Under the pieces are notes generated by a model. That model saw nothing but the letters and a program-made list of their open reading frames with translations. It did no database searches and was not told the origin of the DNA. 64,000 nt of DNA from Taxawa tesnikishii (nom. ined.). Its lineage: Eukaryota > Ascomycota > Dothideomycetes > Dothideales. Where the stretch lies: contig JAPDRO010000002.1 in NCBI GenBank assembly GCA_030247885.1, forward strand, positions 1,674,001 through 1,738,000, in the 5' to 3' direction. Each line of letters opens with the position of its first letter. The stretch's first letter is position 1. Positions 7,388-62,200 of the stretch are shown here, in pieces. Both the position numbers and the translations under genes were made by a program.

Positions 7388-10300
7388 TTATCCCGCGAAT
7401 CTAAACTTCGTCGCTTCAAGCCTACCCAGGCCCTCACGAGGCGCGACGTTCCTCCTCCTGTACGAGTTCGTAAAATCCTGCAGGAGCGTGCGGATCTTGC
7501 GGATGTCGTTGGACTGGATGCGCTGTTCGATGTTCCTCAACAGCCTCTCCTGCTCCTGCGGACTCATACTGCCGGCCGGTAACATCGTGATGGTCGTCCC
7601 GACCCAGCGAGCGGTTTCCTGGGGAAGGATCTGAAAGAGGGCGAGGAGCACGCCGGAGCCGTCGGGGAAACAGTCGGCGGGGAAGGTGTACATCATGCCC
7701 GTCATCAGGCGTTGTACCATGGTCTCGCCGTTCTGAACCGTGAGTTGTTTCACCGCTTGTTGGATCTCTGGTGGGTTCGAGCGCGGGCCGGCGCCGTCGG
7801 AGAATGTGGACGTGGGGCTGTCTTCTGAGCCGTAGGCAAGGAAGTCGCGCAGGAAGTGAAGGGTCGCGAGCAACGGCTCCTCTTTGAGCAGGGTGAGAGC
7901 TGCAGAGGCGGCGGAAAGTATGGACGGCATTAGGTCAGAGGCGATGATTTGATGGGGGTGGTAGAGGAGAACGTCGACGCAAAGCCGGTAGAAATCTTCG
8001 ATGACTACGCAGACGATCAGCAAATGCTTCCACTCACGGTTCGGTAAACATACCATCAGGAAGCTCTTCCGGCGCTAGCGCGCTGAGGGTCCGAAGGAAG
8101 GTCGTCGCTTGTTGCTGGAAGAAATCGAATACGGCACCGATGGTTTCTTTGCTGACTGCCTCTGAATCATCGGTGAATTCGCGGACAATGGAATCAGTGG
8201 CCCAAAGGAAGCATCCTTGCCGTGACGCAGCGAAACCTGAAGCGAGCTTTTCTGCAAGAACTGGGAGCAGGGGCGCAATTTGCGTGTGGTACGACAAAAC
8301 CATGTACCGCCAGCAGCGGCATACCCTCTCTAGTATCGGCGGAAAGTTAGAAAAGTGATCGGCTATGTCAGCCAGAACGGGGAAGATCTCTTGGCAATAC
8401 TGAACAGCAGGATGAGGTTGGCCAGGTGGGGTTATGGGCTGGATCCATTGCACAAAGACGGTGACGAGCTGGAGGGCATCTGAGAGCGTCAGTGAGGAAA
8501 AGCAAACAGGTCGCGAGTCCACTTACCTGCAAGCGCTTCCTTGCTTGCCTGGTCGTTTGCAGATTGGGCCATAGCCACCAGCCGCTTCATGACAGGATCG
8601 CAGCACATCTTGAAAGACGCATAGGTCTGCTCAGGCGGTAGCTTTGCTATCACTGAGGCAATCCCCTCTGTGATTTCCTCCTGACTTGACGACGGTAGCT
8701 TGTCGAAAACACCTTCGTAAAACGTCTGCAGCTGATTGATGTAGTCCTTCAGCAAGTCGGCACAGTCGTTGCAAAAGAACCTGAAGGACAACGCTGCAGC
8801 CCGCACGACGTCTTTCGACGGGTGCTGGAAGGCCGCCATGATGAAATCCAGTTGCGGTTGCAGAGTATCCGGGTGTTGTGAAGTCCACTCGGTATACCGG
8901 CCCAGAGCCATGACGGCCTGGAAGCGGACCTTTCCTGATCCGGGATCTGCACTATCAAGGGTATGAGCCGTGGAAGCATGATATTCTCATCCGGCGGGAC
9001 CATGCGGCCCATGGCGCGCATGCTGAAGAGAGGTGCCTCGAGCTTTTGCCACTCCGGGACTTTTCCTTGACTCGCTTGAGGACCGTACGTCTTCACCCAT
9101 TGCTCAATGAGGTTGTAGGACTTGGATAAGCATTCCGTCACACCGATGACCTCGCAGCAATCCTTCAGCACGTCGCCCATCTGGTGTCTGAATTCCCTGA
9201 ACTTGTCTTCCTGTTCCCTGTCACCCTCGAACAGATCGCTGTCGTCTCCGCTCTCGGGTTTGGGGTACTCCAAGTGGCCCGTCATGACGTCGACAAGATT
9301 TCCGTAGATGTCAACGAACTGCAACCGGGCTGGCATGTAACGCTCCAGTGTGATGTACTGCTTCAAGTCGTACCAGAAGTTGAAGGTCAGAGAGATGACG
9401 TCCCGTCCCTTGTCGCGCGCAGCACACTCCAGCACAGCATCCACAAGTCCTCTGAAGTCTTCCGGCATCCTGGCGATGAGCACGACCCAGGCCTCTCCCG
9501 CCTCAGCAAACACCCGAGTAACGCCCTTGAAAGTGTCGGTGTCATCGCTCTCGGCAGCCTGGGAGATTCGAGGCCGCAAGTCCATGATCCTGGGATACAA
9601 GGCTTTGATCATGTTGATGCATTCGTCCACGTCTCGCGTTTCTTTGAACATGGCGCAAAGGGTTTCCACTGCAGCTTCGAAAGACTGGTCCGTCTGTAAA
9701 GCAGTCATGACCACATCCATAAGGGGCGAATTTATGATGTCGTTGAGTGGAACTTCGCGTATCCAGGATGTGATGCAGTCCATGAGCTGAGGGTTGCGGG
9801 TCGCATCTCCTGAAAATCGCAAGTGTAAGCATTTCAGGCAACGCACAGGCTTCGTGTTCCGATACGAAAGGCAACCAGAGCTGGTGGAGAAGATTCGGCT
9901 CTGGAGTACGAGATGAAATAGAGCCTTCCAATACAAGCGTTGACTTACCAGACGTCTGCGCATATTGGGTCAAGAACTGTACAACTTGGTGTCCGTTATC
10001 CCCCAGTAGCTCCATTGTCCTTTCTCTGAGTTCGACCTCCTGTTTCCATAGCATTAGACTTTGACCATTATCTCTTGCGTTGTCCGGAAAGGAGATCCAT
10101 CCGTGTCGACACATACAGAAAGGTTGATTTTGCGTCCTTCGATCGCTTCTTCGGGGAGAACTTTGAGGAATTCAAGGACACATAGTATGCCGTTGGGGTC
10201 GTTGCCGAGTGTGGAAACGACTGATTGCAGGACATCTTTCCATTCCAACATCTGGATTGCCAAATTTGCCAAGCACACGCATAGCTGTGTCCGTATGGGC

Positions 10301-10727
10301 TTTGGGCCTTTGCTGTAAGCGGTGAGGAGTCGGAGTAGAGTATCTCGAAGTTGAGGGAGTGACTCGTGCGGTAGTTGGTGCAAATCGAATATGATCTGTG
10401 CCAGTCAGAGAATATTTCGCGAGGCGGACGGGTCGGTGAAGCGTACTTTGCCCTTGAGCGTCGTGGCAGCGAACAGTCTGGCTTCATCTGTAGCTTCAGA
10501 TGCCTGGAGGATGGCAAAGGTTGTTGTCCATGCGTCGGTCTGTGTATGCAGTTAGTCCACACTGGTTCCTGTGAGCCCCCGCCAACCCCACCATGACTGA
10601 CTGATTTCTGGAAGTGTTCCAGGAATTCGTGTGCCTGACCCTTCTGCGCGCGGTCTACGTTAGACTGCATGGTCGCAAGAGCAGCCAACACGGGCGCAAA
10701 CGCCTGCTGTGTACCGTTGGACGCCAT
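7388..10727 (-). CDS. MTR10: mRNA transport regulator MTR10, importin-beta/transportin-SR type nuclear import receptor
   Basis: Seven exons: 10727-10602, 10539-10447, 10395-10117, 10039-9949, 9809-8527, 8479-8054 and 8004-7388, all with GT...AG introns. The spliced product is about 971 residues, usual for the family. It opens MASNGTQQAFAPVLAALAT and has the importin features LKGKIIFDL, GPKPIRTQLCVCLANLAIQM and, later, ALGRYTEW and FRFFCNDCA, a HEAT-repeat solenoid throughout. The family carries SR/RS-domain RNA-binding proteins such as Npl3 into the nucleus. Odd: at 8929-8935 the frame slips. Upstream reads ...IVQIPDQE and downstream KVRFQAVMALGRYTEW needs one more A (GAAAAGG instead of GAAAGG). 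Counting that base, all exon phases close and the stop at 7388 fits. I take it as an assembly deletion, not a pseudogene. Confidence 0.92.
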
Positions 10728-11702
10728 GGTTGTGTTCGAGGAGCGCAGCGCGCAGAGGGCAAGGAGAGTGTTATGTTTGGCGGAGGTCTGACAGGAGGAC
10801 CATAAACTCGTGACGAGTGTTGTATGCCACAGTATGCGACAGATCTTGTCGGCTGGGGTGGTTGTCAAGTAAGGATCTGGAAGTAATGTAATGCAAGGCA
10901 GGGCAAGGCAATGCAGTGAAGCGTGGCTCGTTGGCAACTTTCGAAAGGAGCCAAATAAAGTTGAAGATGATGCCCGCTGCGCACATGCAAGCCCGGCGAC
11001 ACGGCGTTGATGAAAAGCCTTGGCAGTACAATCACGAACTCGAACCCGAACTCGAACTCTCGAACTCGAACTCCGGTTGGGCGACGTCGGGGCCTCACTT
11101 CGCCGTTGCCATATACGACTCTACAGTTGGAATGGGACGGTGGACCTTGGACACAAGTCCAGCGTCTTCGACACTGGCAGCGTGGATTCAGGTTCAACAC
11201 TCTGGGTACGAATTCGATCGGCATGAAACTTGCAACGCAGCGTTACCCCAGGTCGTGTGCAGCGCGACAGCATCTTCGAAGACGAAGACAGACGAAGACG
11301 GACGAAGTGCTTGTTGTTTAGCAGATAGAGCTTCTGAGCAGCACCCGTAACATGTCCATGCTGCTATTGAATCCCGGTCGTGTTCGTGCAACGGCGACAT
11401 AGTGTATGTCGTCTGTCTCGACGTCGAGGTCGGACAACAGACATGCATGACATGACGCCCGTCAAAAATTCGAAACAGATCAAGAGCCGTCGCCACTTCC
11501 CCAAGATTAGATGCGCCCCTGCCCTGTCCTGCCCTGCCCTGCCGTTTCGCTCAGCCAACGACATCCTTGTTTCCTTGGCGTCGCCAACCCGACAAGTCCG
11601 ACCATTACGACGCCGCCTTTCTCCTCCTCCGAAGTAGAAACAATACATACCCTCATACCGCACAACAACACTGCCTACCACACACCACACCACAATACCA
11701 CA
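10728..11702. other. Divergent intergenic region MTR10/ROT1
   Basis: Shared promoter region of about 975 bases. It holds short direct repeats of CGAACTC/GAACCC type near 11036-11072 and runs of GCAAGGCA near 10893-10915. No coding sequence is supported. Confidence 0.55.
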
Positions 11703-12687
11703 ATGAGATTACCATCCGCATACGCGTTGACCGCCAGCCTGGCATTCGCTGCCGTCGCGTCCGCCCAAGGTGCTACCGACCTCGTGGGAACCTGGTCAAC
11801 AAAGTCCAACAAGACCCTCACCGGCCCTGTACGTTCGCATAACGAGGAAGTACCCATGGCAGCAAGGAGACGCTGCTAACTGCAAGCGCAGGGCTTCTAC
11901 GATCCCGTGAATGAGGAATTCTTCGAGCCAGAGCGCACCGGCATCTCTTACTCCTTTACCGCAGATGGTCACTTCGAGGAGGCTTACTACCGCGCTATCG
12001 CCAACCGTACGTCGTATCGCCTCGTCCTTTCCTTCTTCTTTCGAGTGCGCAATCATGTTGGAGTACTGTATTTGGAAGAGTAGACTAACATACGGCACGA
12101 CACAGCACAAAACCCTGCCTGCCCGAGCGGAATAATGCAATGGCAACACGGAACCTACGTCAAGAACGCCGATGGTTCTCTCAGCCTGACTCCCTTTGCT
12201 GTCGACGGGCGCCAACTGCTCTCCGAGCCCTGCAGCTACGACAACGCCATCTTCACGCGCTACAACCAGACCGAGAAGTTCAAGGTATTTCCCTTTCCTT
12301 CTTGTGCACTTGTCATCTTCCTCGATCGCTAACGGCCCACTCCAACAGTCCTACCAAGTCCTGACCGACCCCTACCACAACATCCCCCGCCTGAACCTCT
12401 TCAAATTCGACGGCTCGCCTATGAACCCCATGTACCTCGTCTACTCTCCACCACAAATGCTGCCAACCAGCACCCTGAACCCAACTGCTTCTGCTACCGC
12501 AGGTGCGACCGCGACCGGCAGCAGCAAGCTCAGGAAGCGCGATGAGGTCCCGCTCAACTTCAAGATGACCCAGAGACGCGCCCACCAGGTCATGAACCCG
12601 GATCGCTGGTGGTGGATTGGCCTGACCCTGACTGGCGTCGGAGGATTGATGTACTTTGGCCCGAGGAGGATGGGAATCAGTCTCTGA
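11703..12687 (+). CDS. ROT1: ROT1, ER membrane chaperone for cell-wall glycoprotein synthesis
   Basis: Four exons: 11703-11828, 11892-12006, 12106-12284 and 12349-12687; 252 residues. An N-terminal signal sequence ([21 protein letters not shown]) is followed by the ROT1 hallmarks [93 protein letters not shown] and [12 protein letters not shown]-terminal hydrophobic anchor ([18 protein letters not shown]) ends the protein. In yeast Rot1 is an essential ER protein needed for beta-1,6-glucan synthesis and for O-mannosylation and folding of glycoproteins. Length and order match the family; the N-glycosylation sequons (NKT, NQT) suit lumenal exposure. Phases close without correction. Confidence 0.95.
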
Positions 12688-13278
12688 GCCGCACCATCAG
12701 GAACGCAGTCGGCGAGGTTAACAAAGGGAAGCATGTTGTGCATGTCATTGATGGAACATGGATCAACGGGCGTTTTCGGGGGCTGGGAAACCGTCACAAG
12801 CGCTTTGGCTGGAGTTAAGAGACGCAATTATGGGGACTATCTTCTTTTGCACAATCCATGGCACACGACTGCATGTGGGAAGTAACTGACTATTTCATCG
12901 CCCGCGCCTGCCTTTCCTGCCTTTCCTGCCTTTCCTGCCTTTCCTGCCTCCACTCGTAAAGTGTCATCAAGTGATTACCACTTTCCCGAAGAAAACGTCA
13001 AAGAAATCATCAAATCATGGCCAACCTGTTTCGCGTCAAATTCTCCAATCCCGTCCGCGTGGAGGTCATCTTTCAGCTCCAAAACTGTCACAGTCGTGTG
13101 ACGAGCCACTTCACAGGACCTCGCTCCATCTGTCGTTCCCTTCTTCCACTTCGTTCTCTTTATTATTTTTTTATTTTCTCTTGCTCTGCGCTTTGTTCTC
13201 CTATTCACCACTCTGCTTCCCCTGCTTCACTTACGACTGTGAGCCAGAGAAGCCAGCGCTTGGGCGGGGAAGAGAACT
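12688..13278. other. Convergent intergenic region with a 9-bp minisatellite
   Basis: 3' flanks of ROT1 and of the DUF6697 gene. Apart from the short tandem array at 12907-12948 I see nothing functional. Confidence 0.55.
12907..12948. repeat. Tandem array of TGCCTTTCC, about 4.5 copies
   Basis: Perfect 9-bp units in a row in the intergenic DNA between two convergent genes. Pyrimidine-rich on the plus strand. Confidence 0.9.
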
Positions 13279-15415
13279 CTACTTGCGCTCACCTGCACGA
13301 CCACGCAGATGCGGTGCTATAAACGGCTTCTGGCCCGGCTTGACGTCCTTCTGCTGCGCAGCACCAGCACCAGCATCAGCACCAGCACCAGCACCACCAG
13401 CAGCTGACGGGTTGCCGCTTCCGCCATCGCCGTTCTTCCGGCTCGCCTGCGCAGGTTTCGCCGTCCTCTCAGACACCGGAGCCTTGGCCACGCCATCTGG
13501 CGCCACGGCCCCCGCGCCCTCGACATCCTTGTTCTTGATCTTGACCAGCACGTCGTAGAACGCGCGATCGTAGCCGACGCACTCGAGGTACTCCCACCAG
13601 AGCCTGAGGCCGGGCTCCTCGTCGGCGTCGCTCTTCCCGAACGCGGCGAGGACGGCCTCGGGCCTGAGCAGGGAAACCTTCATGCGCGCCTCCCTCTCCC
13701 AGTCGCGCAGGTCGAGCACGTAGTCGTCCAGCGCGCGCTCGAATACTCGCTTCCCGGATCCGTTCTCGCGGGACGCGGACGCGATGCCGCCCTCGCCCGA
13801 TCCGGCGGCGGCGGCGGAGGAGGAGGAGGAGGAGGAGGAGGAGGAGGAGGCGGCACGGGCGGACGGCAGGGGCCCGGCGAACTCGGGCTTGGGCCAGAAG
13901 TGCGACATCAGCGCGTCGGTGACCCATCCAGGCCGGCCCGCGGACGCGAGCTGCTCGGCCCAGTACATCTTGACCGCGTCGGGCACGCCGTCGACCATGC
14001 GGTCGTGGTCGAGCCTGTCGCTGAACCGCGTCTGCGAGTAGTTGCCGTAGTACGTGTACTCGAGCCTTCCCCCGCCTTGGGCTCGCCGACGAAGACGGGC
14101 GCGTTCCGGTACGCGCGCTCGGGGGCGAGTCCTCGGTGGTGGAGGTGTTGAAGAAGGCCGTGAGTTTGGCGCCGTGGGTGCCGGGCGAGGCGGGCAGGAA
14201 GGGCTCGAATTCCGCGTCGAGGATCCAGTAGGCTCGGTCGGGGAGGATGCTGGTTCGCTTTTTGGTGACCCAGTAGAAGCCGGGGCTCCACTGGGTGCCG
14301 TGCAGGGTTTCGAAGAGGAACTCCCACGAGAAGGTCTCCGCGTGAGGGGGATGTTGTTTGTGATGTGAGGGTCGAGGGGCGGACGTTGTGCGATGTAGGT
14401 AGGCTGCCAGGTGGGATCGGCCTTGAGGGAGGGATCCTCGATGCTGCGGATGGGTTCGTCGGGGCTTTGAGTCGAAGCTGGCGTCTCAACTTGCTTTGGC
14501 TTCTCGTCCTCCTTCTCGGAGGCGGATGGCTGTGCCGAGATCTGGTCGAGTGGAGGCAGTTGGGTGCTCTCTCCGGAAGACTCGATTCGTGGAGGCCCAT
14601 CAATGGACGCCTTGACATTGGCACCAACACCGGACTGAACCAGCTCCCTGACCGTGATTGCTTTAGAGAAGGTTTGTGGCGGGGGATAGAGTGGAGGTTC
14701 ATTGTCATCACCAGCCTCAATCGACGCATCAATGTCATGCGCCATCTTCTTCAGCTCCCTTCCCAGAGCCTCCGCGGCCTCGGCTTCCGCAAGATAAGCG
14801 TCCGAGAGGCTCATACTTTCGTCGGAAGCGAACTGTCCCGTGGCCATACGAACAAGTGCTGGGTTCTTCATTGCCGCAGCCAGCTTCTCTCGGTGGGTCC
14901 TCTCTTTCTTGGGTATAGAGCGCGGCTGTATCGTCAGCACGGGAAGCTTCTTCCTCATACACACGCTCAATGTCACTCACCTTGTTCCGAAGCTCATGGA
15001 TCTGTTGCTGCAGGCTTCTCAGATCTCTGGTGACAATCTCTTTGACGTCCGCAATCTCCTTGGTTAGCTCTTCCACTCGATGCTCGGCTGCCTGGCCATC
15101 GGAAAGGTGACGGGAATCATTGTAGACCATTTGCTTTTGAAGTCCTTGAACCTTGCTCTCTAACAGCTCCGTGGAAGGGTTATTGGCCAGCGGAAGATAC
15201 GTCGTCATGACGTTTGGCTGGAAGCCTGGGGCTAAAGGGTTCAGATTGGGTATGCTACTGTTGTAGCGAGTGAGACTCAGGTCGGTGACTGGTGGCCGTT
15301 GAGACTGAAAGTGACGTTCAGCTGTTTGAAACGGAAAGCCGGGCATCCTGCTGGTGATGAATCTTAAATCTGTGGTTTGTTGAGCGTTGTTGTTGGAAGT
15401 GCTCGTTGCTGCCAC
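13279..15415 (-). CDS. DUF6697-like fungal protein with N-terminal coiled coil
   Basis: Two exons, 15415-14981 and 14925-13279, joined by a 55-nt intron (AAG/GTGAGT...ACAG/CCG). The N-terminus is disordered; residues about 85-145 form a coiled coil (ELLESKVQGLQKQM, VKEIVTRDLRSLQQQIHEL). The conserved core has SWEFLFETLHGTQWSPGFYW, AYWILDAEFEPFLPA, HGAKLTAFFN, RNAPVFVGEP, EYTYYGNYSQTRFSD, VKMYWAEQLAS, HFWPKP and, near the end, IAPHLRG. I recall this set as DUF6697, function unknown. A Ser run (about 11) and an AGAGAGADAGAGA tract lie in the C-terminal half. Three one-base deletions are needed, at 14346-14350 (G5), 14121-14125 (G5) and 14069-14073 (C5); three of the same sign restore the original frame, so a shifted-frame island of about 90 residues sits inside an otherwise open frame. 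Corrected length is about 694. Confidence 0.75.
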
Positions 15416-17799: not shown

Positions 17800-17945
17800 G
17801 TGCTGTGAAAGCTCGGGCGAACATGAAAGCGTCATCGGTGTTGTGCATGTTGATACGGTGAACTGTACTTGCGTGAACCATACAGTTGTTGCCCTGATAC
17901 AGCCGACGGGCTCTGTTCCACGTAACTTGAGATCCAAGCACACCA

Positions 17946-17982
17946 GCTGGGCTGGGCTGGGCTGGGCTGGGCTGGGCTGGGG
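17946..17982. repeat. Tandem array of GGGCT, about 7 copies
   Basis: Pentanucleotide microsatellite in the roughly 400-base spacer between the doubtful gene and the DAHP synthase 3' end. The spacer (17800-18213) otherwise shows nothing functional. G-runs at regular spacing on the plus strand could form a quadruplex. Confidence 0.9.
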
Positions 17983-18213: not shown

Positions 18214-19490
<1,277 letters not shown>

Positions 19491-21441: not shown

Positions 21442-22456
21442 CTACGCTCCCTTCATACCTCCACATCCCGTACCTTGGCAATCCAGACCAGGCAGAGGGT
21501 ACGCACACGCTCCCGCATCTGCAGACGGCTTCGCAGCCTCCGAAGTCTTCGTCGAGCTAGGCTTAGTCGGCTCCGGCAGGGATAGACCTTCTCGGTCGTG
21601 CTCGTGCTCGTGCTCGTGCTCACGCTCGACGTCGTCGTCAACGAAGAAGAAGAAGAAGAAGAAGAAGAAGAAGAAGAAGAAGAAGAAGAAGAAGAAGAAG
21701 AAGAAGAAGAAGAAGAAGAAGAAGAAGAAGAAGAAGAAGAAGAAGAAGAAGAAGAAGAAGAAGAAGAAGAAGAAGAAGAAGAAGAAGAAGAAGAAGAAGA
21801 AGAAGAAGAAGAAGAAGAAGAAGAAGAAGAAGAAGAAGCTGCTGGGGCGTTGGCGGCGGGGATGTGTGAAGCACTGTCCGCGGCGGAGGAAGGCTTTGAC
21901 CGTAGCTGCTGAAGGGAAGGGTGGAGAAGATGAACGGCTGGGTCACGGTGACGGTTGGCGCGTCCGCCGTGACGGTGACTGTGGGCGCCTCTGCCGTGAC
22001 CGTGACGGTTGCCTGCGATGCCTCACGTGTCGTTGCTGCGGCTTGGGCACCCTTGCGTGGGGTGCTCGGCGTGATCGGGATGATCGCGAGACTGCTCGAG
22101 GAAGCTCCGCTGGTGGGCGCGACGGCGAGAGGAGTGCTCGTCGGAACAACCGCCAGGCTGCTAGAGGAGGCTCCTGTGGCCTTTGGTGAGGGAATCTCAA
22201 AGGTCAGGTACGGCAGCTTAGGGGCTTGGGTTTGCTTAGATGCTTCTGAGGATTCGGAAGAACTGGATGCTGGAGGAATGTAGACGGTCGAGGTGGCCGT
22301 GTCCGTAATGGTGGAGAGCCCCGGCGAGGTTGTTCCAGGAGCGACTGTGGTATACTTGGTGACAATGTCGGTAATGGTAACGAGCTGTCTGGGTAAGACG
22401 GCCGCTGCTGCGATCTGGCCTGCCAGAGCAGCGAGGATTGCGTTTTGTGGATGCAT
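21442..22456 (-). CDS. Secreted Ser/Thr-rich protein with a very long poly-Ser tract
   Basis: The ATG at 22456 begins a signal peptide (MHPQNAILAALAGQIAAAAV) followed by Thr/Ser-rich sequence with a repeated APTVTVTA motif (about residues 155-180). No named domain. The frame then reaches a 65-unit TTC tract. Read naively it becomes poly-Leu and stops at 21638. Two single-base deletions, near the AAA at 21893-21897 and in the CCC at 21579-21581, would instead give poly-Ser flanked by Ser/Thr-rich sequence (NAPAASS before, LTTTSSVSTSTSTSTTEKVY after). A Pro/Lys-rich tail with three Cys would follow (CAYPLPGLDCQGTGCGGMKGA) and end at 21442. With two bases added the length is exactly 339 codons, which supports this reading. 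Likely a wall or extracellular protein. Confidence 0.6.
21643..21838. repeat. (GAA)65 trinucleotide tract
   Basis: 196 bases of uninterrupted GAA on the plus strand (TTC on the minus strand), inside the secreted-protein gene on the minus strand. A pure purine/pyrimidine tract of this length can form triplex DNA and is prone to slippage, so the assembled length may not be exact. A shorter GTGCTC array (about 21594-21622) lies beside it. Confidence 0.97.
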
Positions 22457-22831: not shown

Positions 22832-24680
22832 TCAAGGAAGTGAACCCCGAATAACCAAGTTCGCAAGCGTTCTAGACCGAGTCCCGAGGGAGCCTCCACT
22901 CGAAAGCTGTGGGCGTGATGTAAGCCATCTTGCTCGCAGCAGCACCAAGGAGACTTCCGGACCAGAAGCGTTCGGTTCAGCCTCGTGCACATGCTTGTCC
23001 CTTATCCCAAGTGAATGCATCGAAGCTTCTACTGTCCCAATGAAGGTGTCGGGCTCAGGGTTGGTTGCAGTCGCATTGGGTCCGCTGTAGGTGTTTGTTG
23101 GTGCCGGGGAGGTCTTTTCTTTCATGTCTTCTCTGAGAATGCGGATTTGCTCTTTGATCACTCGCCAGAGCTCGTACCGCCCCAGGTCCCCATGGTCGTC
23201 GTCTCCTCCGAGAGATACAACTCCATCCGTCTTGTTGCGTGCAATGATCAGCAAAGCGGCCACGAACGCCTCTTGCATGTAAGCAAAGGAGAATCCATCT
23301 GGCAGAAACGATCAGTACATCTTCACGGAAGACTGCATTCACAACTTCTCAATTCTCACCTGTAATGCCAGCAATAGCCGAAGAGAGTTTTTCTGGAAAC
23401 TCGACAGACGGTCTCTTTTGCAGCTTCTTGCGCCAGAATTCGCAATAAAGCACACGTTCATGATGCGACGGTAATGGAAACAGGTATTTGCGATCAAACC
23501 GACTCGGCCGCTTTGAGATACCGGGATCGAGCTTGTTGATGTGATTAGTGCTAGCCACCATCAGTATGCCCTGGTTATTCTCTAGACCGTCGACTTCGTT
23601 GAAGAAGTAGCTTCGCGTCATTGCGGTGACAATCGTATCAATGTCTTCAAAGACGAGCAGACACGGTGCTTGTTGTCGAGCCAGCGAGAAGACATTGCGA
23701 ATGTGGTACTGATTGGGTGCGTTCTTGACGTAGAGCGTAGGAATAGGATGTTTCCGCCTCATCAGTGTATGCATGAGAGCTGGAATCCAGTCAGCGGCAG
23801 ACTTATGAAGTCCACAAACAGTTAACATACCTTTGATCGAGATGGTCTTGCCATTTCCTGGCGGTCCATAAAAGATGACACCTCGCTAGACAGACGTTAG
23901 CGAGCTCCTCTAAAGCGCACAGTTCGCAGCTCTCACCTTCCATGGTACGCCCAGATCCTCGTAGATTTCTGAGATGATATGTCAGCTCCAATTGTTCACG
24001 GCATGAGGAGAACAAGCAGATGCTAGGAAGAAAAAGACAGCGCACACAGTACCTTTGTTATCGAAGAATTTCTCGCTAACCTCCGTTAATGCCTTCTTCA
24101 TTCCCTCATCAAGAATAACATCCTTCCACTCCGCTTTCTGCACCTCGTTCCAAAGATCTTTGTTTCTGACCCAGTAGTTGTCGTACACCCAGACAAATTG
24201 TTCATCCGCAGATTGCCATTGACCCACCGTCCGGAGCAGAGCGTCCGTGACAGACGAATTTGCGAGCACGTGCTCTCCTTTCTGGGGTTCCTTGAGTACA
24301 TATTGCATTCCGGAAACGGTATACAATATGAAATCTTCGCCCTTCCACGAGTAATGGTACTTGGCGAAAAAGGTCACTTCGCCGAGACCGCCTTGTTGAC
24401 CTCGTCGTCGCGATGGCACCCACCCACGCCATTTTGCGACAGAATCGGTATCCGTATCGAGCTCAGCCACGGCGTTGCCCGAGGCCGCAAAAGCTATGAG
24501 GTTGCAGTTCGTAGCCGGAGTCGAGGTGACGATAAGCTCCGGGTGCGCCTTACGCAGTGCTGTAAGGTATTGTATGTCATGGTCGGCTGTCTTTGCGGAC
24601 GTGAGGTCCTGGAAGTCATCGAACAGGTGGTGTGGTCCACTGCGCTCAACGAGAGTGAAAGGTTCAAAGCTATCGGCCAT
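22832..24680 (-). CDS. AAA ATPase, BCS1-type
   Basis: Five exons: 24680-24053, 23968-23937, 23885-23831, 23779-23360 and 23298-22832; 533 residues, phases close. The N-terminal 210 residues include a sandwich-like domain (GEVTFFAKYHYSWKGEDFIL). The AAA module follows with Walker A GPPGNGKT, Walker B LLVFEDIDTI, sensor 1 MVASTNHINKLD, the arginine-finger region RPSRFDRKY and a C-terminal lid (ITGDGFSFAYMQEAFVAALL). This layout is that of fungal ATPases related to Bcs1, the mitochondrial chaperone that moves the Rieske protein. However, I see no N-terminal membrane span or presequence, so this paralogue probably works elsewhere and its substrate is unknown. The last 45 residues are Arg/Ser-rich and look unconserved. 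The start ATG at 24680 precedes the conserved MADSFEPFTLV. Confidence 0.85.
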
Positions 24681-25646: not shown

Positions 25647-27318
25647 ATGGCACCCATAGCAATCGACGCCAACGAAGGCGCAAACGGCACTTCCCTGAAT
25701 GCCAAAGCACCATCTTTCCAGCCACAGTCGCAGCAAAATGGCTCATCGAGCATCCATGCCGCATCGTCCAGTGAGGCCATCTCCGCCGAGGCCGCTTACG
25801 CCGCACACAACTACCACCCCTCCCGATCGTCTTTGCTCGCGCTAGCGGCTGCGAGGTCTGGGACCCTGAAGGTCAGTGTTCTAACCTGGTCGCGTTGAAC
25901 GAACGGCTACTGAACAGCCCGCAGGCAAGCACTATCTGGACTTTCTCTCTGCATACAGCGCCGTGAACCAAGGACACTGCCACCCAGAACTCGTCAAGGC
26001 GCTGTGCGACCAGGCCTCGCGCCTGACTCTGAGCTCGAGAGCGTTCTACAACGATGTCTTCCCGCGATTCGCCGAAGTGGTCACGAAGACGCTGGGATTT
26101 GAGATGGTGCTGCCCATGAACACAGGTGCAGAGGCCGTCGAGACGGCGGTCAAGATCGCCAGGAAGTGGGGATACAAGAACAAGGGCATCCCACAGGACA
26201 AGGCTCTGGTGTTTTCCGTGCAGGAGAACTTCCATGGCCGAACGGTGAGTTGGGACAGTCAGAGACGGCGCATTGTCCGAGGTCTTGAGTACAGTGCTGA
26301 TGCTTCTGCTTCCCCTGCAGTTCGCTGCTATCACCATGTCCAATGACCCTGAGTCGAGAGAGAACTACGGCCCTTACCTCCCAAACATTGGCTCTGTCTG
26401 CCCTGCGACTGGAGCGCCTCTACGGTACAACAACGCCGACGATCTTGAGAAGGCACTTGAGATTCATGGCAAGGAAACTGCTGCGTTTCTTGTTGAGCCC
26501 ATCCAGGGTGAAGCTGGCATTGTGGTACCGGACGAGGACTACCTCCGCAAGGTGCGGGCTCTTTGCGACAAGCACAACGTCCTCATGATCTGCGACGAGA
26601 TTCAGACGGGTATTGCCCGTACAGGCAAATTGCTCTGCCATGAGTGGAGCGGAATCAAGCCCGATCTGGTTCTGCTGGGCAAGGCTATTTCCGGTGGCAT
26701 GTACCCTGTGTCGTGTGTCTTGGGTCGCAAAGACGTCATGCTCACCATTGAGCCTGGTACCCACGGTTCCACCTACGGCGGTAACCCTCTAGGCTGTGCT
26801 GTGGCTATCCGCGCACTCCAGATTGTGCAAGAGGAGGGTATGGTTGACCGCGCACAGAAGCTGGGAGAGCTCTTCCGGCAAGGACTGCGCAACATCCAGT
26901 CAAGGAACTCCATGCTTCAGACCATCCGCGGCAAGGGTCTGCTGAATGCAATGGTCATCGACGAGAGCAAGACGGGGGACACACGGCGTGGGATCTTTGC
27001 ATGCTCATGAAGGAGAAGGGGCTTCTGGTAGGAAGAGCCCTTAGAACTATGAAGACGGTGTCCGGACCGACCATCGCGGTGAAGGAGACGTCGTCGTTGA
27101 TGCAGAGTGCTAACATGAATGGCAATGAACAGGCGAAACCAACACACCAGAACATCATCCGTTTAGCACCACCATTGGTCATTTCTGAGGAGCAGATCAA
27201 GACTGCTCTGAAGATTATCGAGGAGGCAATTGAGGAGCTGCCCAATTTGAAGGGCAAGAAGGAGGAAAAGGTTCTGCCCGAAGGTGAGAGGAACGTGCAC
27301 GTTGAGCTTGAAAACTGA
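25647..27318 (+). CDS. Ornithine aminotransferase (ornithine-oxo-acid transaminase)
   Basis: Four exons: 25647-25871, 25925-26244, 26321-27027 and 27133-27318. Cytosolic PLP enzyme of arginine catabolism converting ornithine and 2-oxoglutarate to glutamate semialdehyde and glutamate (yeast CAR2). Signatures: [82 protein letters not shown], the PLP-lysine region [14 protein letters not shown] and [11 protein letters not shown]. Two one-base deletions interrupt it. At the C4 at 25817-25820 the frame goes from HNYHP to the expected [18 protein letters not shown]. At the G5 at 26976-26980 it goes from DESKTG to [16 protein letters not shown]. With both counted the CDS is 480 codons and all phases close. 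The sequence between exons 3 and 4 is a normal 105-nt intron. Confidence 0.93.
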
Positions 27319-29377: not shown

Positions 29378-29797
29378 GGGTCACCACGATCTGATCTCCT
29401 TTTTGTTTTTTTGTTTTTTTTGTTTTCTTTTGTTTTTTTGTTTTCGCTGGTGATGAAAGCATAGCGTGGCGTTACGGTGGGATTGGGACTGTACATGTTT
29501 TTGTCTCCTATATACCCTGCTGCCGCTCAGAATCATTGCTTGTGGCTGTTTTCTTTTTCTATATCTCATGGACGTCCATGAACTCTTCAATGTCAATACA
29601 TTCTCATGTGTCTCACTGGTGCCCAATGAAAGCATACCACAATGCTAACCTTGATCTTTAAACATAGTAGCTTTGTGAGAATACTACCGGTGTTCAGCGG
29701 TCGGAGCGATGGAGGCGCCTCAAAGCAAGCTCTGCTAGTCATCTTCATAACTTAAAATTCTGGAGCATGGGGATCTATGGTATTGCTGTGTCGCAAG
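29378..29797. other. Intergenic spacer with T-rich terminator-like DNA
   Basis: Between two convergent genes. T-runs interrupted by single G at 29400-29443 follow the stop of the upstream gene and probably belong to its 3' end region. Confidence 0.5.
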
Positions 29798-30626
29798 CTA
29801 TCTTGGTTTGCGCTTCACATCCATCTCTTCTCCATTCACCTTGCCGTACAGCCAACTCAAGCTCAACGTACTGACAGCCATGACCACTGCGCTGCCCGAA
29901 AAGAGCGCAGCACGTCCGGGAGTATCCAGTTGCTCAAAGATTGGGTAGGCGTAGAAGCCGTTCTTGCTATAGCACAGCTCGGTCCAGAACCAATACGCCA
30001 GAGCAATGAAACTGCTCAAGCCAAGCGCAGGGAGCGCGGAGATTGCATACGGCGGGGAGAAGAAGAGGAGGTCGACTACGAGGGCTACGGAGGGTATCGC
30101 GTGGAATGAGAAGTCGGTTTTGAGGGAAAGGACAGGCGCCCAATCCGGCATGACGAGGCCCGGGTCGATCTGGTCAAGAGTAAGCGGAGTGGGAGGAAAG
30201 TGTGCCGGCGCTCTACGTACGGTTCGCAAAGCCCAGTACAGTATGCTGATCAGGACTTCCATGGGTGCACTGGCTATGCTCAGCGTGTTCTTTATCCTAA
30301 ATAGAGTCGGGCTAAGTGTGAGATCGGCCAATAGGCCCACAGCGAACGTGGATGCGGCCAAGGAGAGACCGATGATGGTGAGGTATTGCATGTGCCAGCC
30401 GAATGAATCATTTATCTGGTTGGGATTGGCCACGAGATAGTTGAAGGAGTAAGCAAAGCTGGCAAGTCCCAGTACCTGTCTGTGTGTTCAGCATATCTTT
30501 TCGTCCTTCCCGGAGAGGTTTCGTTGTTCACGCATACGTGTAGTAGTGAAGACGCGCCTCGTGAGGGCGAATGCAACCTCTGAAGGGGTGTCGTTGCACG
30601 AGTGAGTGCGCTGTATCACCAGACAT
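29798..30626 (-). CDS. FAR-17a/AIG1-like membrane protein
   Basis: Two exons. Exon 2 (30475-29798) is clear: VLGLASFAYSFNYLV, QINDSFGWHMQYLTIIGLSLA, DFSFHAIPSVALVVDLLFFS, FWTELCYSKNGFYAYPIF and a basic C-terminus. It gives five or six membrane spans, typical of the androgen-induced-gene/FAR-17a family; the human members AIG1 and ADTRP hydrolyse fatty-acid esters of hydroxy fatty acids using a conserved Thr and His. Exon 1 (30626-30538) encodes MSGDTAHSLVQRHP and, after one extra C in the C4 at 30585-30588, LQRLHSPSRGASSLLH. It then splices at GTATGC. With that base the exon is 90 nt, in phase, and the protein is 255 residues. Fungal members do begin with an RHPLQR-like stretch. Confidence 0.82.
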
Positions 30627-38613: not shown

Positions 38614-39978
38614 ATGCATTTTCCGCCGCTTGCTGTGTTCATCACCTTCCCTACGCCCAACTACATCAGCCCAGCCACACGCGGCAACGCGCTCGTCGTG
38701 ATCGACATCGTCTTCATGGTACTGATTACCGTTGCTGGTAAGTCAGTCTTTGGGAACAAATCCGAGAAGAAGAAGTACCGACTGCATGTACTCATCATCA
38801 TACTAGTGGCGCTGCGGTACTATGCACGCATCACCCTAAAAACCGCCTTGGCAAGGACGATGTGGCAATCGCTGTTGCTCTGGTGGGCTGAGTCTTCTCG
38901 CGCTCCTTCTCCTTCCGCTACGCATTCCACAAGGCTGACGACAAGCTCTACCAAACAGATCTGGGCGCTGGGTCTGGGTATAGCGGTCATTCTGGCCAAT
39001 GTCCGCTACCAATGGGACCGCCACATCTGGGACGTTCAGTTCACCGTCGTACAAGACGCAAACATCGTTGCCATGGCCGCCAAGCTGCTCTTCACGCTCG
39101 CCGCCACGTTTACGCGAGTCTCGCTGATATGCTTCTACTACCGCCTCATCAAGGACAGCGGAAGTTTCTGGTTTCGCTGGATGCTGCATTCCAGCATGCT
39201 CTGGACGATCGCCGTGTGCATCAGCTTCGTCGTGTTGACGGTTTTCCAATGCACGCCGGTCGAATCGTATTGGCTCTTCCCACCCATGAACAAGTACCAC
39301 TGTCTCGACGAGGGAAAAGTGACGCTGGCAGCGGGCATCATCAACTGTGTGTCCGATCTCCTCGTCACGCTGATCCCGATACCGATCGTCATGCGGTTGC
39401 ACATGCCGCTGAGCCAACGCTTCGGGGTGGTCGTGCTCTTGACTCTGGGTATAGTGGTCACGGTTGCAGGGGTCGTCCGGACATACTTTATCTGGTTGAG
39501 CTTGATAGCTTCATGGGATGAGACGTGGTATTCCTACCCGCTGTGGATCTCCGCTGTTGTCGAGATCGACCTAGCCGTTGTGAGTCGAAACACCCTGCGC
39601 TGCATTTTCCGTTGGCTTGAGCCTCCCCTCCGTTAACATCTTCCCATGAAGCTGTGCGCATGCGCTCCGGCCCTGAAACCTCTTTTGTCACCAGCATGGG
39701 CGTCACTCACCTCGGCCATCGCCTCAACCCTCTGCCCAAGTTTTATGCGCGACCGGTCGAGAGATAGAGCGGAAGCATCGCCGTTCTCGTCCGGTGCATC
39801 GTCGTCACGGCCGATGTTTAACCCTTTGAGGAGTCTGGGCTGGTTCCAGCACCCGCGATATGAGTTCGAACCCGTCCAGTTTGGGGGCAGCAGGCCTGAA
39901 GTGGTCTTCAGGGTGGTACGGGAGAAGGGTACGTGTGAGCTATCTGGGCGTATACCGCCTCAGAACATGGAGGTGTGA
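38614..39978 (+). CDS. Fungal rhodopsin-domain (Pth11/SAT5-like) integral membrane protein
   Basis: Three exons: 38614-38737, 38807-39579 and 39652-39978. Family words: RGNALVVIDIVFMVLITVA, VALRYYARITLK, RVSLICFYYRLIKDS, VFQCTPVESYW, GIINCVSDLLVTLIPIPIVM, WDETWYSYPLWISAVVEIDL and CACAPALKPLLS. Six or seven membrane spans and a cytosolic tail. Members of this large family lie in plasma or vacuolar membranes and some act as receptors in infection. The stretch 38838-38960 is suspect: as read it gives TALARTMWQSLLLWW, but one extra A in the A5 at 38838-38842 gives NRLGKDDVAIAVALVG, the usual family sequence. A return to the downstream frame needs further changes I could not place, so the second membrane span is uncertain. 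The product as read would be 407 residues. Confidence 0.78.
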
Positions 39979-43132: not shown

Positions 43133-43259
43133 GCGCTGCATAACCATGGACGTCCCCTCCCAGCCCCTGTATTCTGGACGACTTATCTGTCTCGCGGCTG
43201 TTGGGGTCTGGCACGGTGTGCGATATCAACACCCGGTTTGGCGAGCATTGATTCGAGCG

Positions 43260-48054: not shown

Positions 48055-49294
48055 ATGTTGCTACGTCTATTAGGTGCTGCCGCCCTGGCATGCGACCTCG
48101 CCTCTGCCTTCCGCGACACGTCGCCTTTCTTCCTGTTCTCAACCTCTCAGTACGTATCCTGCAGCCTTGAATTGCCCCCGACGAACATGCTACTCACACT
48201 GATAGGCTTGATACGTCGAAGAACCCCATTCAACACGTCGTAAAAGCAAGAGATGTCGAATCATACACTGCAACACTTCTGCGCGAATGTCCTTCGGACA
48301 CCTACATCTTCGTCTCCCAGCCAGGTGTCACGGCTGCCGACTTCTCGTCATACCAAGCGACGCCTCACCTTAGGAGGCGACTGATGGGGAAGATGCTGCG
48401 ATAAGATCATCGGTTGTTGTTCCGGACGTGTTGGGTGCGGCGGATTATAATACAGGAGCCCGATCAGCGCTGCAGAAGCTGTGCACCAAGACAACCCCTG
48501 TTGTTCTGGATGGTTCGAGTAGGTCTTCCGCAAAGGGCAACGCTGTGATATGAACGGCGCTGCTCGAGATGTTGTTAAAGAGGTACTGACTTGTCCCAGG
48601 CGGTACTATCCCACGGCATGGGCCCGTGCCCCAGAGCATTATTGTTGACTTCCCCAGCCTGCCTGTGGAGGCTGATGAGCGCGCCTCCACGCTTGCGAAG
48701 CACGGTATGGTATTTCATTCCGATGTAGGGATTTGCGGTGCTGATGGCTGGCAGATTCGTACTTGAACGCCCTTGTCGCGAGCTTGCCCAACGAGGAATA
48801 CACAGTGATCTATACTACCACTACCCCTGCTGAAGACCAGCGTGTCTCCGAGATCATCCACCAAGCCCAGTACTACGAGATGGATGAGCCTTACCCGTCT
48901 GGCATGCATACAGATCTCAAGCGCGACCTGAGGGCCTACCCCCGCGCGTCGAATAGTAGCAACCTCGATTCCAAGCTCCCACTGTTCGAGAAATACCAGT
49001 TTTTGTCCTCAGGTGAGTGCATTCGTTGGATTCCCAAGAATTTGTCCTCCATGCCAGCAGGTAGCCTCCCACATGTGGTGGAGTGGGCGCAATGCTTTGG
49101 GTCGAATCCGGTTGGTTCTGTTTCATGCAAGCGTACTAATACGTTATACAGGAATCTTCATGGGTCTAACAGTCACCGTGCTTCTTCTTCTGATTCTGTA
49201 CATTGCGGTCTCGGCCATCTCCGGTCTGGAGGTATCCTACATGGCTTTCAGCAAAGAGATGGGCCCGGCAGCGCAGAAGAAGCAGCAACAATAA
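48055..49294 (+). CDS. BIG1: BIG1-like ER membrane protein (V-ATPase S1/VOA1 family)
   Basis: Five exons: 48055-48149, 48206-48518, 48600-48704, 48755-49012 and 49152-49294. A signal peptide (MLLRLLGAAALACDLASAF) is followed by RDTSPFFLFSTSQLDTSK and a lumenal domain with CPSDTYIFVSQPGV, PVVLDGS, VPQSIIVDFPSLP and NEEYTVIYTTTTPAED. A C-terminal span (LTVTVLLLLILYIAVSAISG) leads into EVSYMAFSKEMGPAAQKK, whose Lys tail looks like an ER-retrieval signal. Yeast Big1 is needed for beta-1,6-glucan; the related Voa1 helps assemble the V-ATPase Vo sector. One base is missing in the G4 at 48386-48389: reading switches from HLRRRLMG to EDAAIRSSVVVPDVLGAADY. With it the CDS is 305 codons and all phases close. 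The last intron has a TACTAAT branch site. Confidence 0.9.
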
Positions 49295-55564: not shown

Positions 55565-56245
55565 TGCGCGTTCTTTGTGAACGAGGTGTTGGTATATGCC
55601 TGTTTGCCCCGCACAACACACTATTCGGAAAAGTGGAGATTTATGTATGAGCGAGGATGCGCAGCGGTACGGAAGGAAGGGATAGAGATGAATGCGAAGG
55701 ACCGAACAAAGAGAGATGCAAGCGGGAGGCTGCTACCATCGAGGGCATTGGGCATCTGGAATGCTAGCCATGGCGACGCATTGGCATTGGCGTTGACGTT
55801 GGCATCGGCATTGGCATTGGCATTGGTACATCACAAGCCCTCCAATGGGTGACGGTTCACCTGGCTCGCATTGAGGTTCTCATTAGGTAAACGCTCGCTT
55901 CCGCATTTGGCTCTGGCGCATTGGAGCGGGAAGCAGCAGCACGAACTCGGTGTAGATGCGTTGTTCCCCTCCTACACACCGGTTGGATGCCAAGACATCA
56001 GACAGTAACAGCGATCGAGTGAGAGCGGAACTGAACAGGTGGAGATGGACATATATATATACGCGTAGTTATCAGCTGCATGCGGTCCCAAGCTGAGGCC
56101 CGGTGCCAGTTCACGATGCTGGGGAGCTGCACGTGTGACGCGCGCCAAGCCTTGCATGTGTTCGCGTTCACCCAGATCGGAAATCTAGGGTCCCAATTGA
56201 CAGCAACGTTAACTCGACCGCGAACACCAAGTCGACCGGGTCACG
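55565..56245. other. Divergent intergenic region with a 6-bp repeat
   Basis: 680 bases between the DUF3602 gene and STT4. It includes a GGCATT/GGCGTT/GACGTT array at about 55779-55826 and a TATATATATA run near 56051-56062. No gene. Confidence 0.55.
55779..55826. repeat. Imperfect tandem array of GGCATT, about 8 copies
   Basis: Hexanucleotide units with single-base variants (GGCGTT, GACGTT, GGCATC) in intergenic DNA. Confidence 0.85.
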
Positions 56246-59200
56246 ATGAGGGCGTGAGTACATACCGTTGTCCTGACTCGACTCGCCTTCAGTACAGCTA
56301 ACCGAAGCCTTCGTAGTTCCCACCACACCCCGCTGAGGCGTCAGGCCTTTGAGAAACTTGCTAGCTTATCTACACAGCATACCACTGACCCGCGCAAACC
56401 AACTGACCTGCACCGAATATGCTCATTGTACCGGTCACCGCCAGTCGCCAATGGCGCGTCCAGCAAGGATGCCCACGCGTCGCAGATGTTTGTGTCCAAG
56501 ATTCCTATGGTGCGTTGCCCAGGACGGAAAGAGCGTGGTCTTCTGGCTATTCAGCTTCTCACACAATCGCCAGAGCGTACGAGAGCTTGAGGTTCTCACA
56601 GCATTATGCCGTGCAGCACCGTGGGTTACTGTGACCGAACAAGCCGAGAGGTTGTTGCATCAGATTGTCCCCTATCTGGCAGAAGCGCATACACAGACGT
56701 TCAGACCATCGCCTTCGTTGCGTGATTTCCAGCCATCGCCATGGGAAGTCCTACTCCGCGATCTCACCACTGCTGTACTTGTCCTTGGAACCAACCACCC
56801 TTCTCTGCGGGCGGAGTCCCTTTCTTGCATCACCAAAGCAGTGGACACCTTCTGTTCAGCTGCCGAGAAGATCGCGTGGACGCACAAACTGGACGATCAG
56901 GAAATTGCCAAGGCCATGGATATCCAAGCGGCTCCCAGCATTGTGCCTTTCACTGTTTCTCTTCTTGGATTTCTCGGCGCCTTAGCAGGATACCCGCGAT
57001 TCTGGACCCTTGAAGAGCGAATCGACACCATCCACAAATTGAGGAGGCTTTTGTCTGAACAGTTCATGACCGTACTGGAAGGCACCTTGTCCTCGGTGCG
57101 CAACGAGCATGGTCACTTCAAAGCCCTCAAGGAATGGAGGCGCCTCTTGAAGCTTTATGCATCGGCAGGTCGGCCTTTGGGGGCGATGCTTCTGCAACAA
57201 GAGTTTATGCGTTTTGTGGCCTCGTCCACCGTACTTCTTGTTCAAACGCCGTCTCCAGCAACAAGCGATAACATCTTAGACCTTCTTCTACAATTCCCTT
57301 CGGCCACAGCTGTCAGAAAGGAGGACATGGACGACAACGTACTGGAAGCGCTTAGCGATCTGATTGCCGACGAGATGGCGTTGTTAGAGGCCGACGCTGA
57401 CTATTTACAGCTTAGCTCGGCATGGCAGCAACGGCTGGCTTTCTCCGTCAAAGCCAACAGTCTCAAGAGCTACCTCTGCTGCTGCCTGACTAACGAAGAT
57501 ATTGCTGACTCCGATGTTCTGATGAACTGGCTTGAGGCTGTGCTCAGTGATCCGGTCCAGTTCGGTGATGACAACCTAGCACAGGTCACGTTCAAATGTA
57601 TGGCAATCCTGGCAAAGATCTCCCAGCCGCTGGCATCCCAGCTGGGTAGAACTCTCCCGAGGTTCATTGTACAAGGTCGCATGACCACCGTCATTGCGGC
57701 CACTGCGGCAGATTGTCTCGCTAGCATACTCATGCTGCTGTCCCAGGACACAGTGATCAGCACATTGTATAGCCTGGGCAATGTTCTCAGCTCAGCAGGG
57801 AATGCGTCACGGACGAATCTGGCCCTATCTTCTGACCCCAATGCAGTCAACCAAAATGGCTCATTGTCATACTCACAGCCCGCTACTGGGAGCTCAATAT
57901 CGCTAATCACATCTGATGCGGAGGAGACGGCTGCTGTTTATGGAGCGGTCGTGAACGTGGTTGTACAGATCGCAATCAAATGTCAAGATGAGAAGATCGT
58001 GGCGCTTGCTATCTCTATGCTTGCACAGAAAATCGGTCGCTCAACTTCGGCGGTCGACGCGAAGATCATCGCCGGTTCTGCTGCTCTTGGACTGCATGGC
58101 GCAGCCGCTGACTTCCGTCTGTTGGTCAGACTATATAGCAAGCTAGGCAATGATGCTCTTCTGACCGGCAATGGGACAATTCTTGATGCTGTGAGTCGTT
58201 TCGTAACAATCACGCGTCTCGAAACTAACAAAGTGCAGGTCATGGAAGCTCGCTTACTTCTGGCGAGAAGCATTGGAAAGAAGTCTCCTCTGTACGAACT
58301 GTACCTTGTTCATCTTCTGGATGCTCTGGTAAGCACGGGCGACTCATTTACCGGAGAGTCACGCACTGCTTCAGCCAACGTCAAGGCCGGCGCAGAAGAG
58401 ATTGCACAACTTTTGCATCCTCTAGCCGTCCTTGTTTCTATGGATCCCGAAACTAAGGACGATTTCGAGGATCCTGCTACCGTCTCGGCTCTTAGCAGAG
58501 ATGCCTGGTTCAATCTCGTGGTCCACGATTTTACCTTGAACTCCAGTCTGGGCAGAAAACACCTGAGAGATTTGCAGATTCTGGCTTGTTATAGTCCGTC
58601 GTTGATCGATACGGATCGTGCAAACTCTCAAGAGAGCGGTCTCGATTTGAATACGGTCCTCCGTCGCGGCATGGGCCCCCAACATGCGTTGCAGCAAAAG
58701 CGTTGCTAATCCGTGCAATTCCTGCGTCTGAGGTGGATATCAAAGGCCTTGACTATGCAGAACTCACGTTCCTCAACGCTGCCTACATGATTGCAGTTCT
58801 CCGTGCACGGTCAGGTGACTGTACGCGAACTATGGAGTACTTCCTCGACCGCAAGTTCAAGAACGGACCATTGAGCAATTGCCTTGTTGCTATTGCCATT
58901 CACGCAGTCGATGTCTACCTTGCAACAACCCAAACTGGAAGAAATTCGAATTTTGCTGCTCCTGAACTCGCTCAGCAGCTGGTGAGATTTTTGGAGGGCT
59001 GCTGCCATCGCATAGACAAGGTTCAGCATGTCGCAACATCCTCCGCAGATCGCATTATTAACCTGGTTCCGTCTGCGCTATGCCAAAGACCGTCCTTGTT
59101 CGCACTCTTGGAACTTCTTACATTAATGTGGACTAGCTGTCTTGAAGCGGAAACTGACGAGTACGATTGGAAACCGTCTGCGACTTCGCCCAAATGCGGA

Positions 59201-62200
59201 GTTTCGATACAGCTCTCCGACGATCTCGCGTTCAAGCAGATCACCCTGAACAACTTTCACAAACGATGCCGTGCATGGGTATCGAAGATCGTGGATATTG
59301 CACCGCTAGACGCCAAAGGACTCCTTCAAACATATCTTTCGGACTATCAGGACGACGGTGCGTACGGACGTATCTCTCTTGGCCGATCGTTTGCTCTAGA
59401 GATGGGATCGCTTGTTCCGCTTACCGAGCAACGTCTGGCAGCCATTGAATATGCGAGAAATTTCAACATCAACACCGCATCCGACTTTGTCGCGCAATAC
59501 ACGACTCGGCAGCAGTATAGGGCTATTGACGCGTCTCCTTTCCAGGACGAACAGTGGGTACACGTTGATCGCCGCACACTGAATATCACTTACGGAGATG
59601 AACATGAGCGGAACGTTCGAGAAACCGTGTCACAACTGCGCGAGATTGAGTCACGTCTTGCGCATCATCATCACATACCTCTTCCGGAAGTCAAAACCGC
59701 TCTGCGAACAGCAGCTACACTCCTCTGCCGGGCAGGCTCCGATCACTCCGCGCTTGTACATTATCTAGTCAGCATCCCATTTGCCGCGTTTTCCAAGCCG
59801 TCTATCAAGCTCGGCATATCCCTATGGGTGGGGGTCATCAAAGAAAACTCGATGCTCGAACCGAGGATTCTCGCCGAAATCGCCACCAACTGGGAGAGCG
59901 CAGTTCGCCAAAAGCGTGGCATCTTCAGTTCTTCTCTGCAGTACGTTATAAGCCTAGTACAAAGGTGTTTCTTGCTGACTTGGTTCCCAGACACCTTGAT
60001 CCCTTCTATGTGAGAGAGGAATTTGCACCAACAGATAGGGCTGCCATCGTCAAGCGCCAACAAATCGTCAACGACCTCATTGCCCCGCACTTTCGTTTGG
60101 TGCAATTCCTGTCGAGTCATCTTAATGCTAACCGCCTTTGCAGTCCGCAACTGGAACGCATCTTTTTCCGTCTGGCCCGTGTGACTCTTACGGCTATGAA
60201 GCACAGTGCTGGTCAGCCATTAGCGAGAGAAGTGCACTTCCATCTGGTTCTACTCGCGCTGCGAATCTTGATGTATGGTACCGGTTCTAACGATACGGCC
60301 AAATGGGGCCTCAAAGACCAAATTTTGTCTGCAGGACTTTCGTGGTTCAGTCTACCACCGAGGTGAGATACTCAAGATTTGTTCATCTAGTATGGCTCTC
60401 TCTCTGACGTTTTCAGGTGGTCCTACGGCAGCAACAGGATACAACTCAAAGCTGAGCTTCAGTTGATCCAGGAAGTCACCGCGGCACTACGGAGCGCCGC
60501 TTCAATTGGTGCCAAGTCCACGTCCTCTCTACAGTCCTTGCAACCCAAGCAGGATTTGTTGTTACACCTGCTAAGCAATGAGTCTTCTCGTCTCAGCGTT
60601 TGGCTCTCACCTTTGAGTCACGAAGGCTCGAGTGTGTTGCATCTGGGGATCGCAGCAAAGGCGCGACCGAGGTATGTTGAGCTTAATGGGCTTGGCGACA
60701 TGTACTGACGCTCGCAGGTGGCACTGTCGCCACTTCTAAAGGTTGCTTGGGCGGAGAGCGCGTCTCTTGCAACTCAACTTGTTACTCGTTTTCAATCCCA
60801 GCGGTTGCACAGTGAAGTCCGTTGGTTATTGCTGAATTTCCCTGAGAGAGCCCTTGACGAACCGGAAGCCCTGCATGTGTTACTTGGCAGTTCCCTTCCC
60901 AAGGATGTGTCTTTCCAGTTGAAGGTACTTTTTGCTGCCCACGACAATACTAGAACATTGCTAATATTCCAGCAGTATCTGCTCTACTGGGCTGCAGTTA
61001 ACCCCATCACTGCTGTAACTTACTTCCTTCCGGCCTATGGCAATCATCCCTTCATCATACAATACGCGATGAGAGCTCTGGAAAGCCACTCAGTGGATGT
61101 GACATTCTTTTACGTTCCGCAGATCGTGCAGACACTGCGTTACGATGTCCTGGGCTACGTGGAGCGATACATCATCGAGACCGCAAAGTTCTCCCAGCTG
61201 TTTGCCCACCAGATTATCTGGAACATGAAAGCGAACGCCTTCAAAGATGAAGATTCCGAGATCCCGGATCCAGTCAAGCCAACACTCGACAAAGTGACCG
61301 ATTCCCTGCTCAGCAGTTTCTCGACGGATGACAAGGATTTCTACGAACGTGAGTTCAGTTTCTTCAACGAAGTTACGAGCATCTCGGGAAAACTACGTCC
61401 TTTCATCAAGCGTCCCAAGCCGGAGAAAAAGCAGAAAATTGAGGAGGAACTGCGGCTGATCAAAGTTGATGTGGGCGTTTACTTACCCAGCAACCCGGAC
61501 GGTGTGGTTGTCGGTATCGACCGCAAGTCAGGAAAGCCTCTTCAGAGTCACGCTAAAGCGCCGTTCATGGCAACGTTCCGCATACGCAAAGAGAAACAAG
61601 GTGGGATGGAGGCCGAAGATGAAGACCTTGACAAAGTCGCCCAAGGCAAGCAAGAAGCAACTCAAGCAGCCACCTACGAAGTATGGCAGTCTGCCATATT
61701 CAAGGTTGGCGACGATTGTCGGCAGGATGTACTGGCGTTGCAGATGATCGCTGCTTTCCGCGGTATCTTTAACAACGTTGGTCTGGACGTATACGTTTTT
61801 CCCTACCGCGTCACTGCCACCGCTCCTGGATGCGGTGTAATCGACGTTTTGCCAAACTCCATCTCCAGAGACATGCTTGGCAGAGAGGCAGTCAACGGGC
61901 TCTACGAATACTTTGTTTCCAAGTACGGCACGGAAGATTCACTCCGTTTCCAGGCTGCGCGTAACAATTTCATCAAGAGCATGGCTGCCTATTCAGTCAT
62001 CTCTTACCTTTTGCAGTTCAAAGATCGGCATAACGGTAACATTATGATCGATGATGCTGGCCATATCATACACATTGACTTTGGCTTCTGCTTTGACATC
62101 GCGCCTGGCGGTGTTCGGTTCGAGCGCGCTCCATTCAAGTTGACATCGGAGATGGTCGCGGTCATGGGCGGGTCTACAGAGTCCCAGGGTTACCGTCGCT

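Follow-up and report, generated by a model that had tools for sequence, protein, structure and literature searches.

The window analyzed in this work is the whole 64,000-nucleotide stretch at positions 1674001-1738000 of contig C12, in a 29.4 Mb genome of 34 contigs that was judged to be fungal from its genes. Its protein genes include ornithine aminotransferase (OAT), an MTR10/transportin-3 relative, an STT4/PI4KA relative, a DUF6697 gene, BIG1, a fungal rhodopsin-domain gene, a FAR-17a/AIG1-like gene and a Ser-rich gene; no tRNA or Rfam match was found in the window. A sequence-only reading had listed 12 single-base slips in these genes, plus a probable one in the rhodopsin-domain gene, and we examined each of the 13 named sites against protein relatives, coding signal and a gene model that knew nothing of the list. 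The second OAT break (26974..26991, plus strand; model call at 26991) is the clearest of all. Similarity to the structure 5VIU stops in one frame at the named site 26978 and starts in the next, both near residue 367, so that no intron fits between them, and the OAT region is present as a single copy in the genome. The MTR10 relative shows a one-base frame loss at 8925..8975 (minus strand), where the match to transportin-3 structures runs as far as about residue 478 in one frame and resumes from about residue 476 in the next, with a frame offset of one base modulo three across the break. The third Pfam TPR domain begins at 8929 in the new frame, and the model call at 8975 is 44 bases from the named site at 8931.

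The DUF6697 gene (minus strand) switches its best-scoring frame at all three named places: from frame 2 to 0 at 14340..14350 (model call at 14340), from 0 to 1 at 14121..14129 (model call at 14129, loosest penalty only) and from 1 to 2 at 14064..14073 (model call at 14064, loosest penalty only), the final frame thus being the starting frame. At the third break the Pfam DUF6697 match follows, from 14094 on. The gene called BIG1 by the sequence-only reading, whose C-terminal Pfam match is to the Ac45/VOA1 transmembrane domain, has a coding-signal frame change at 48386..48389 (plus strand; model call at 48389). In the STT4/PI4KA relative (plus strand) the coding signal changes frame at 58690..58704 (model call at 58704), where PI4KA is matched in the frame after the break and the frame upstream of 58697 found no relative among solved structures; the second candidate break lies at 60599..60625 (model call at 60599). 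Near the latter, a predicted 46-base intron (60672-60717) would break the frame, and the PI4KA alignment stays in a single frame across an intron that was read as coding, so that homology alone does not require a slip at about 60625. For BIG1 and both STT4 sites the evidence is the coding signal, and some of these sites may be introns.

The first OAT break (25817..25820, plus strand) was placed at 25818 from the printed frames; the model made no call there, the downstream piece aligns to 5VIU residues 31-51 with only 3.4 bits, and a search with the upstream frame at a threshold as loose as E 10 matched no solved structure. The case leans partly on the N-terminal motif of OAT, and this listed slip is weaker than it first seemed. 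In the rhodopsin-domain gene a break at 38838..38842 (plus strand; named site 38840) is plausible from a run of five and a change of plausible frame, with no model call, and the Pfam match begins only at 38962. The claimed FAR-17a/AIG1-like break (30585..30588, minus strand) lies in flat coding signal, and the Pfam matches of this gene are all in one frame. The two breaks claimed for the Ser-rich gene (21579..21897, minus strand) lie around a simple repeat in which every frame scores; positions 21650-21850 of the window score as coding in all frames.

Training of the gene model used the window together with 19 further loci of the assembly, and losing or gaining a base cost the same. Four penalties were applied, and one stricter than the loosest was used for statistics. 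A version that placed introns liberally bridged the breaks with false introns and called hardly any, and a stricter intron model was substituted. With the loosest penalty the calls in the window comprise 10 lost bases and none gained, and eight of the 10 fall within 44 bases of named sites (8975, 14340, 14129, 14064, 26991, 48389, 58704 and 60599), whereas the calls at 22952 and 39656 are absent from the list. Eight of the 12 listed slips were thus recovered blind, all as lost bases, and two of these eight (MTR10 and OAT 26978) are backed by relatives of solved structure; the strictest penalty kept just three lost-base calls in the window. The assertion that a base must always be added, never removed, holds at the loosest penalty for the eight recovered slips; under two stricter penalties the model placed one gained base within the DUF6697 gene, at 14114.

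The imbalance extends beyond the window. The 19 other loci gave 29 lost and 9 gained bases with the loosest penalty and 16 and 4 with the stricter one, with lost-base calls in 15 and 13 of the 19, respectively. Over window and loci together (about 144 kb of real coding sequence) lost bases outnumber gained bases 39 to 9 and 21 to 5, in excess of the false calls expected from simulated intact genes. These simulated genes (about 79 kb coding) yielded 4-11 lost and 9-13 gained bases with the loosest penalty and 0-2 and 1-2 with the stricter one; part of the 39 loosest-penalty calls is therefore false, and the gained-base calls are at or below the simulated false level once scaled for length. When 91 losses and 91 gains were planted, the stricter penalty made 40 lost and 35 gained calls, respectively, counted without matching positions. 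The simulated genes replaced an earlier control in which codons of the real loci were shuffled along the no-break path (13 lost and 3 gained with the stricter penalty, 23 and 10 with the loosest). That control, whose lost-base calls were nearly as numerous as the real ones and to that extent speak against the artefact reading, was set aside because shuffling inside frame segments preserves any real frame change between segments. Lost-base calls are about as dense in the window (10 over 64 kb) as in the other loci (29 over 190 kb), and the window is typical of the assembly.

We then considered the sequence at the breaks. The sequence-only reading had placed nearly all slips in runs of three to five identical bases; 12 of the 13 named sites touch a run of at least three (background 0.29), nine touch a run of at least four (background 0.07) and five a run of five (background 0.013). 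Run length at the named sites ranges from 2 to 5, and the base is C or G at seven of the 13; the STT4 site at about 60625 touches a run of two only. The reading may have placed sites on runs, and the model was blind to them: 13 of the 21 lost-base calls made with the stricter penalty (20 of 39 with the loosest) lie near a run of at least four, compared with 0.176 (0.175) at random coding places.

Longer runs are missing. Compared with synonymous shuffles, coding runs of at least six number 0 in the window against 14.9 expected, and 6 in the other 19 loci against 57.2, or 6 against 72 all together. Under the same treatment, 82 reading frames of E. coli contain 56 such runs against 78.6 expected. 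About 66 long runs are absent from 138 kb of coding sequence, which would be of the order of the number of breaks implied by the call rate and the power of the caller. The depletion is milder in noncoding sequence (34 long runs against 64 expected from a Markov estimate) and does not extend to noncoding T runs (22 against 19); C and G runs are more strongly affected in this assembly. All seven runs of at least six in the window, located between positions 6381 and 38077, consist of T when read on the plus strand, and three form a cluster near 29406-29440. Across the genome, very long runs of A and of T are about equally frequent, and the plus-strand T bias in the window may be chance.

Similar breaks were found in conserved nuclear genes on other contigs. 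An HSP70-like gene on contig C3 and a CCT-type gene on contig C1 each contain one break, with a lost base at a run of four. These are the two frame-changing pairs that came out when the 72 match rows for four Pfam families (HSP70, CCT/Hsp60, AMP-binding and sugar transporter) were read by eye for neighbouring matches too close for an intron; for PF00501 and PF00083 part of the candidates was scored, and rows with internal stops were left unsorted between introns and breaks. Of the 5S ribosomal genes, 44 of the 47 scored matches (out of 1720 candidates) are 120 long, and the sole 119-long match is too diverged to reveal a base loss. Locus L009 (G000:C1:100001-110000), 10 kb long, has a GC content of 23%, lacks tRNAs and open frames of 100 codons (code 4), and its runs do not exceed six; it is perhaps a centromere or an AT-rich block.

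The mitochondrial contigs allow run lengths to be compared directly. Contigs C26 and C28 share one mitochondrial stretch, and over its first 6.1 kb the two copies differ by 13 gapped events and one pure substitution, that is, by run length rather than by substitution, 10 of the 13 gapped events lying in runs of at least four. This count leaves out 22 of 36 events, all in the last ~570 of 6689 alignment columns near the end of C28 (19 of the 22 are substitutions). Another gapped event lies at a lone base in a tRNA gene whose two copies measure 73 and 72. With regard to run lengths, the assembly is in conflict with itself, and genuine length variation among mitochondrial copies could contribute to the differences. 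Over the last ~560 bases of locus L045, C28 differs from C26 chiefly by substitution, as if a repeat or recombined form started there. The cox1 gene of C26 is split over three frames by two breaks, each at a run of five and each lacking one base, whereas cox1 of C25 is open in one frame. The three C26 pieces are 93, 93, and 80% identical to C25 cox1 with no residue gained or lost.

C25 and C26 (loci L037 to L041) represent two distinct mitochondrial genomes, with 480 of 533 aligned cox1 residues identical; the nuclear PI-kinase-type and CCT genes are present in about one set, judged from match rows. A contaminant, a mixed culture or a donor mitochondrion is possible. The tRNA and cox1 places of C25 are mirror-repeated about ~14.1 kb and ~49.6 kb, a pattern that resembles a palindromic concatemer with a unit of ~35 kb; this is perhaps a linear mitochondrial DNA whose ends are hairpins, or else an artefact of assembly.

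Taken together, these results indicate that the frame breaks are almost certainly errors of the assembly caused by homopolymer under-calling, not biology of the organism. During base calling or construction of the consensus, single-base runs would be read one base short; a short-counted run in an exon would break the reading frame, and one in an intron or in intergenic DNA would go unnoticed. Under-calling predicts a shortage of long runs, a genome-wide excess of lost bases, breaks in mitochondrial genes and run-length conflict between redundant copies, and all of these were seen. The source was probably long reads, probably nanopore, that were not fully polished with short reads. The artefact reading originally proposed is thus supported, but the claim that under-calling explains everything is a little strong, since three of the 13 gapped differences between C26 and C28 are not changes in runs of at least four.

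Homopolymer-length errors have been reported for nanopore-only fungal assemblies (PMC7500977), and false deletions in a bacterial assembly peak at runs of four to five (PMC12007338). The errors described there are likewise false deletions of one base at short runs, and they disrupt the frames of conserved genes. The agreement is not complete: in PMC7500977, insertions outnumber deletions after polishing, whereas gained bases here are not above the false calls; in PMC12007338, A and T are hit harder than G and C, whereas here it is the C and G runs.

The alternative that missed introns or wrong gene models cause the frame changes draws on the liberal intron model, which spans nearly all of them, and on BIG1 and the two STT4 sites, where coding signal is the support. 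We consider it very improbable: relatives continue across OAT 26978 and the MTR10 break, no residue is added at C26 cox1, and false introns explain neither the imbalance between lost and gained bases nor the shortage of long runs. Equally improbable, in our judgment, is a genome that tolerates the breaks by ribosomal -1 frameshifting or by RNA polymerase slippage at runs. Programmed -1 frameshifting needs the same frame change as that seen here, single-base runs are natural places to slip, and in insect endosymbionts, where transcriptional slippage at runs occurs, frames are likewise broken at single-base runs. Such a device might be expected to be confined to particular genes and one decoding system; instead, the breaks affect a mitochondrial gene as well as many unrelated nuclear genes spread over several contigs. 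Transcription and translation in mitochondria use a polymerase and a ribosome of their own. With mitochondrial and nuclear genes broken alike under separate decoding, a single cytosolic recoding device cannot explain both, and frameshifting or slippage would need to act in both compartments. Nor does recoding predict the run-length conflict between C26 and C28 or the missing long runs. Slippage by the polymerase would be expected at long A or T runs, but the longest run at a named site is five, with C or G at several sites, and runs of two to five are short for polymerase slippage. Frameshifting and slippage as means of recoding are known in other systems (PMC5009743, PMC8254509).

Slimmer still is the chance that the sequence is correct and that the fungus, in nucleus and mitochondrion, both avoids coding runs of at least six and repairs one-base losses at short runs during expression. 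Least probable of all are true pseudogenes, or relaxed selection across many genes: the reading frames are indeed broken, but coding signal and homology carry on past the breaks on both sides, losses are in excess and gained bases are not above false calls where decay would give mixed gains and losses, and relatives of STT4 and MTR10 were found once (PF00454, families searched in part).

With homopolymer under-calling as the preferred explanation, lost bases were called at about one per 7 kb of coding sequence (stricter penalty), and the true rate is perhaps one lost base per ~3 kb of coding sequence after allowing for the power of the caller. The significance of the finding lies in data quality, and there is none as biology: gene predictions from this assembly will contain split genes along with spurious short introns and pseudogenes, essential genes included. 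Because false gene models are to be expected, accurate reads are needed before gene loss, unusual introns or recoding are claimed for this fungus.
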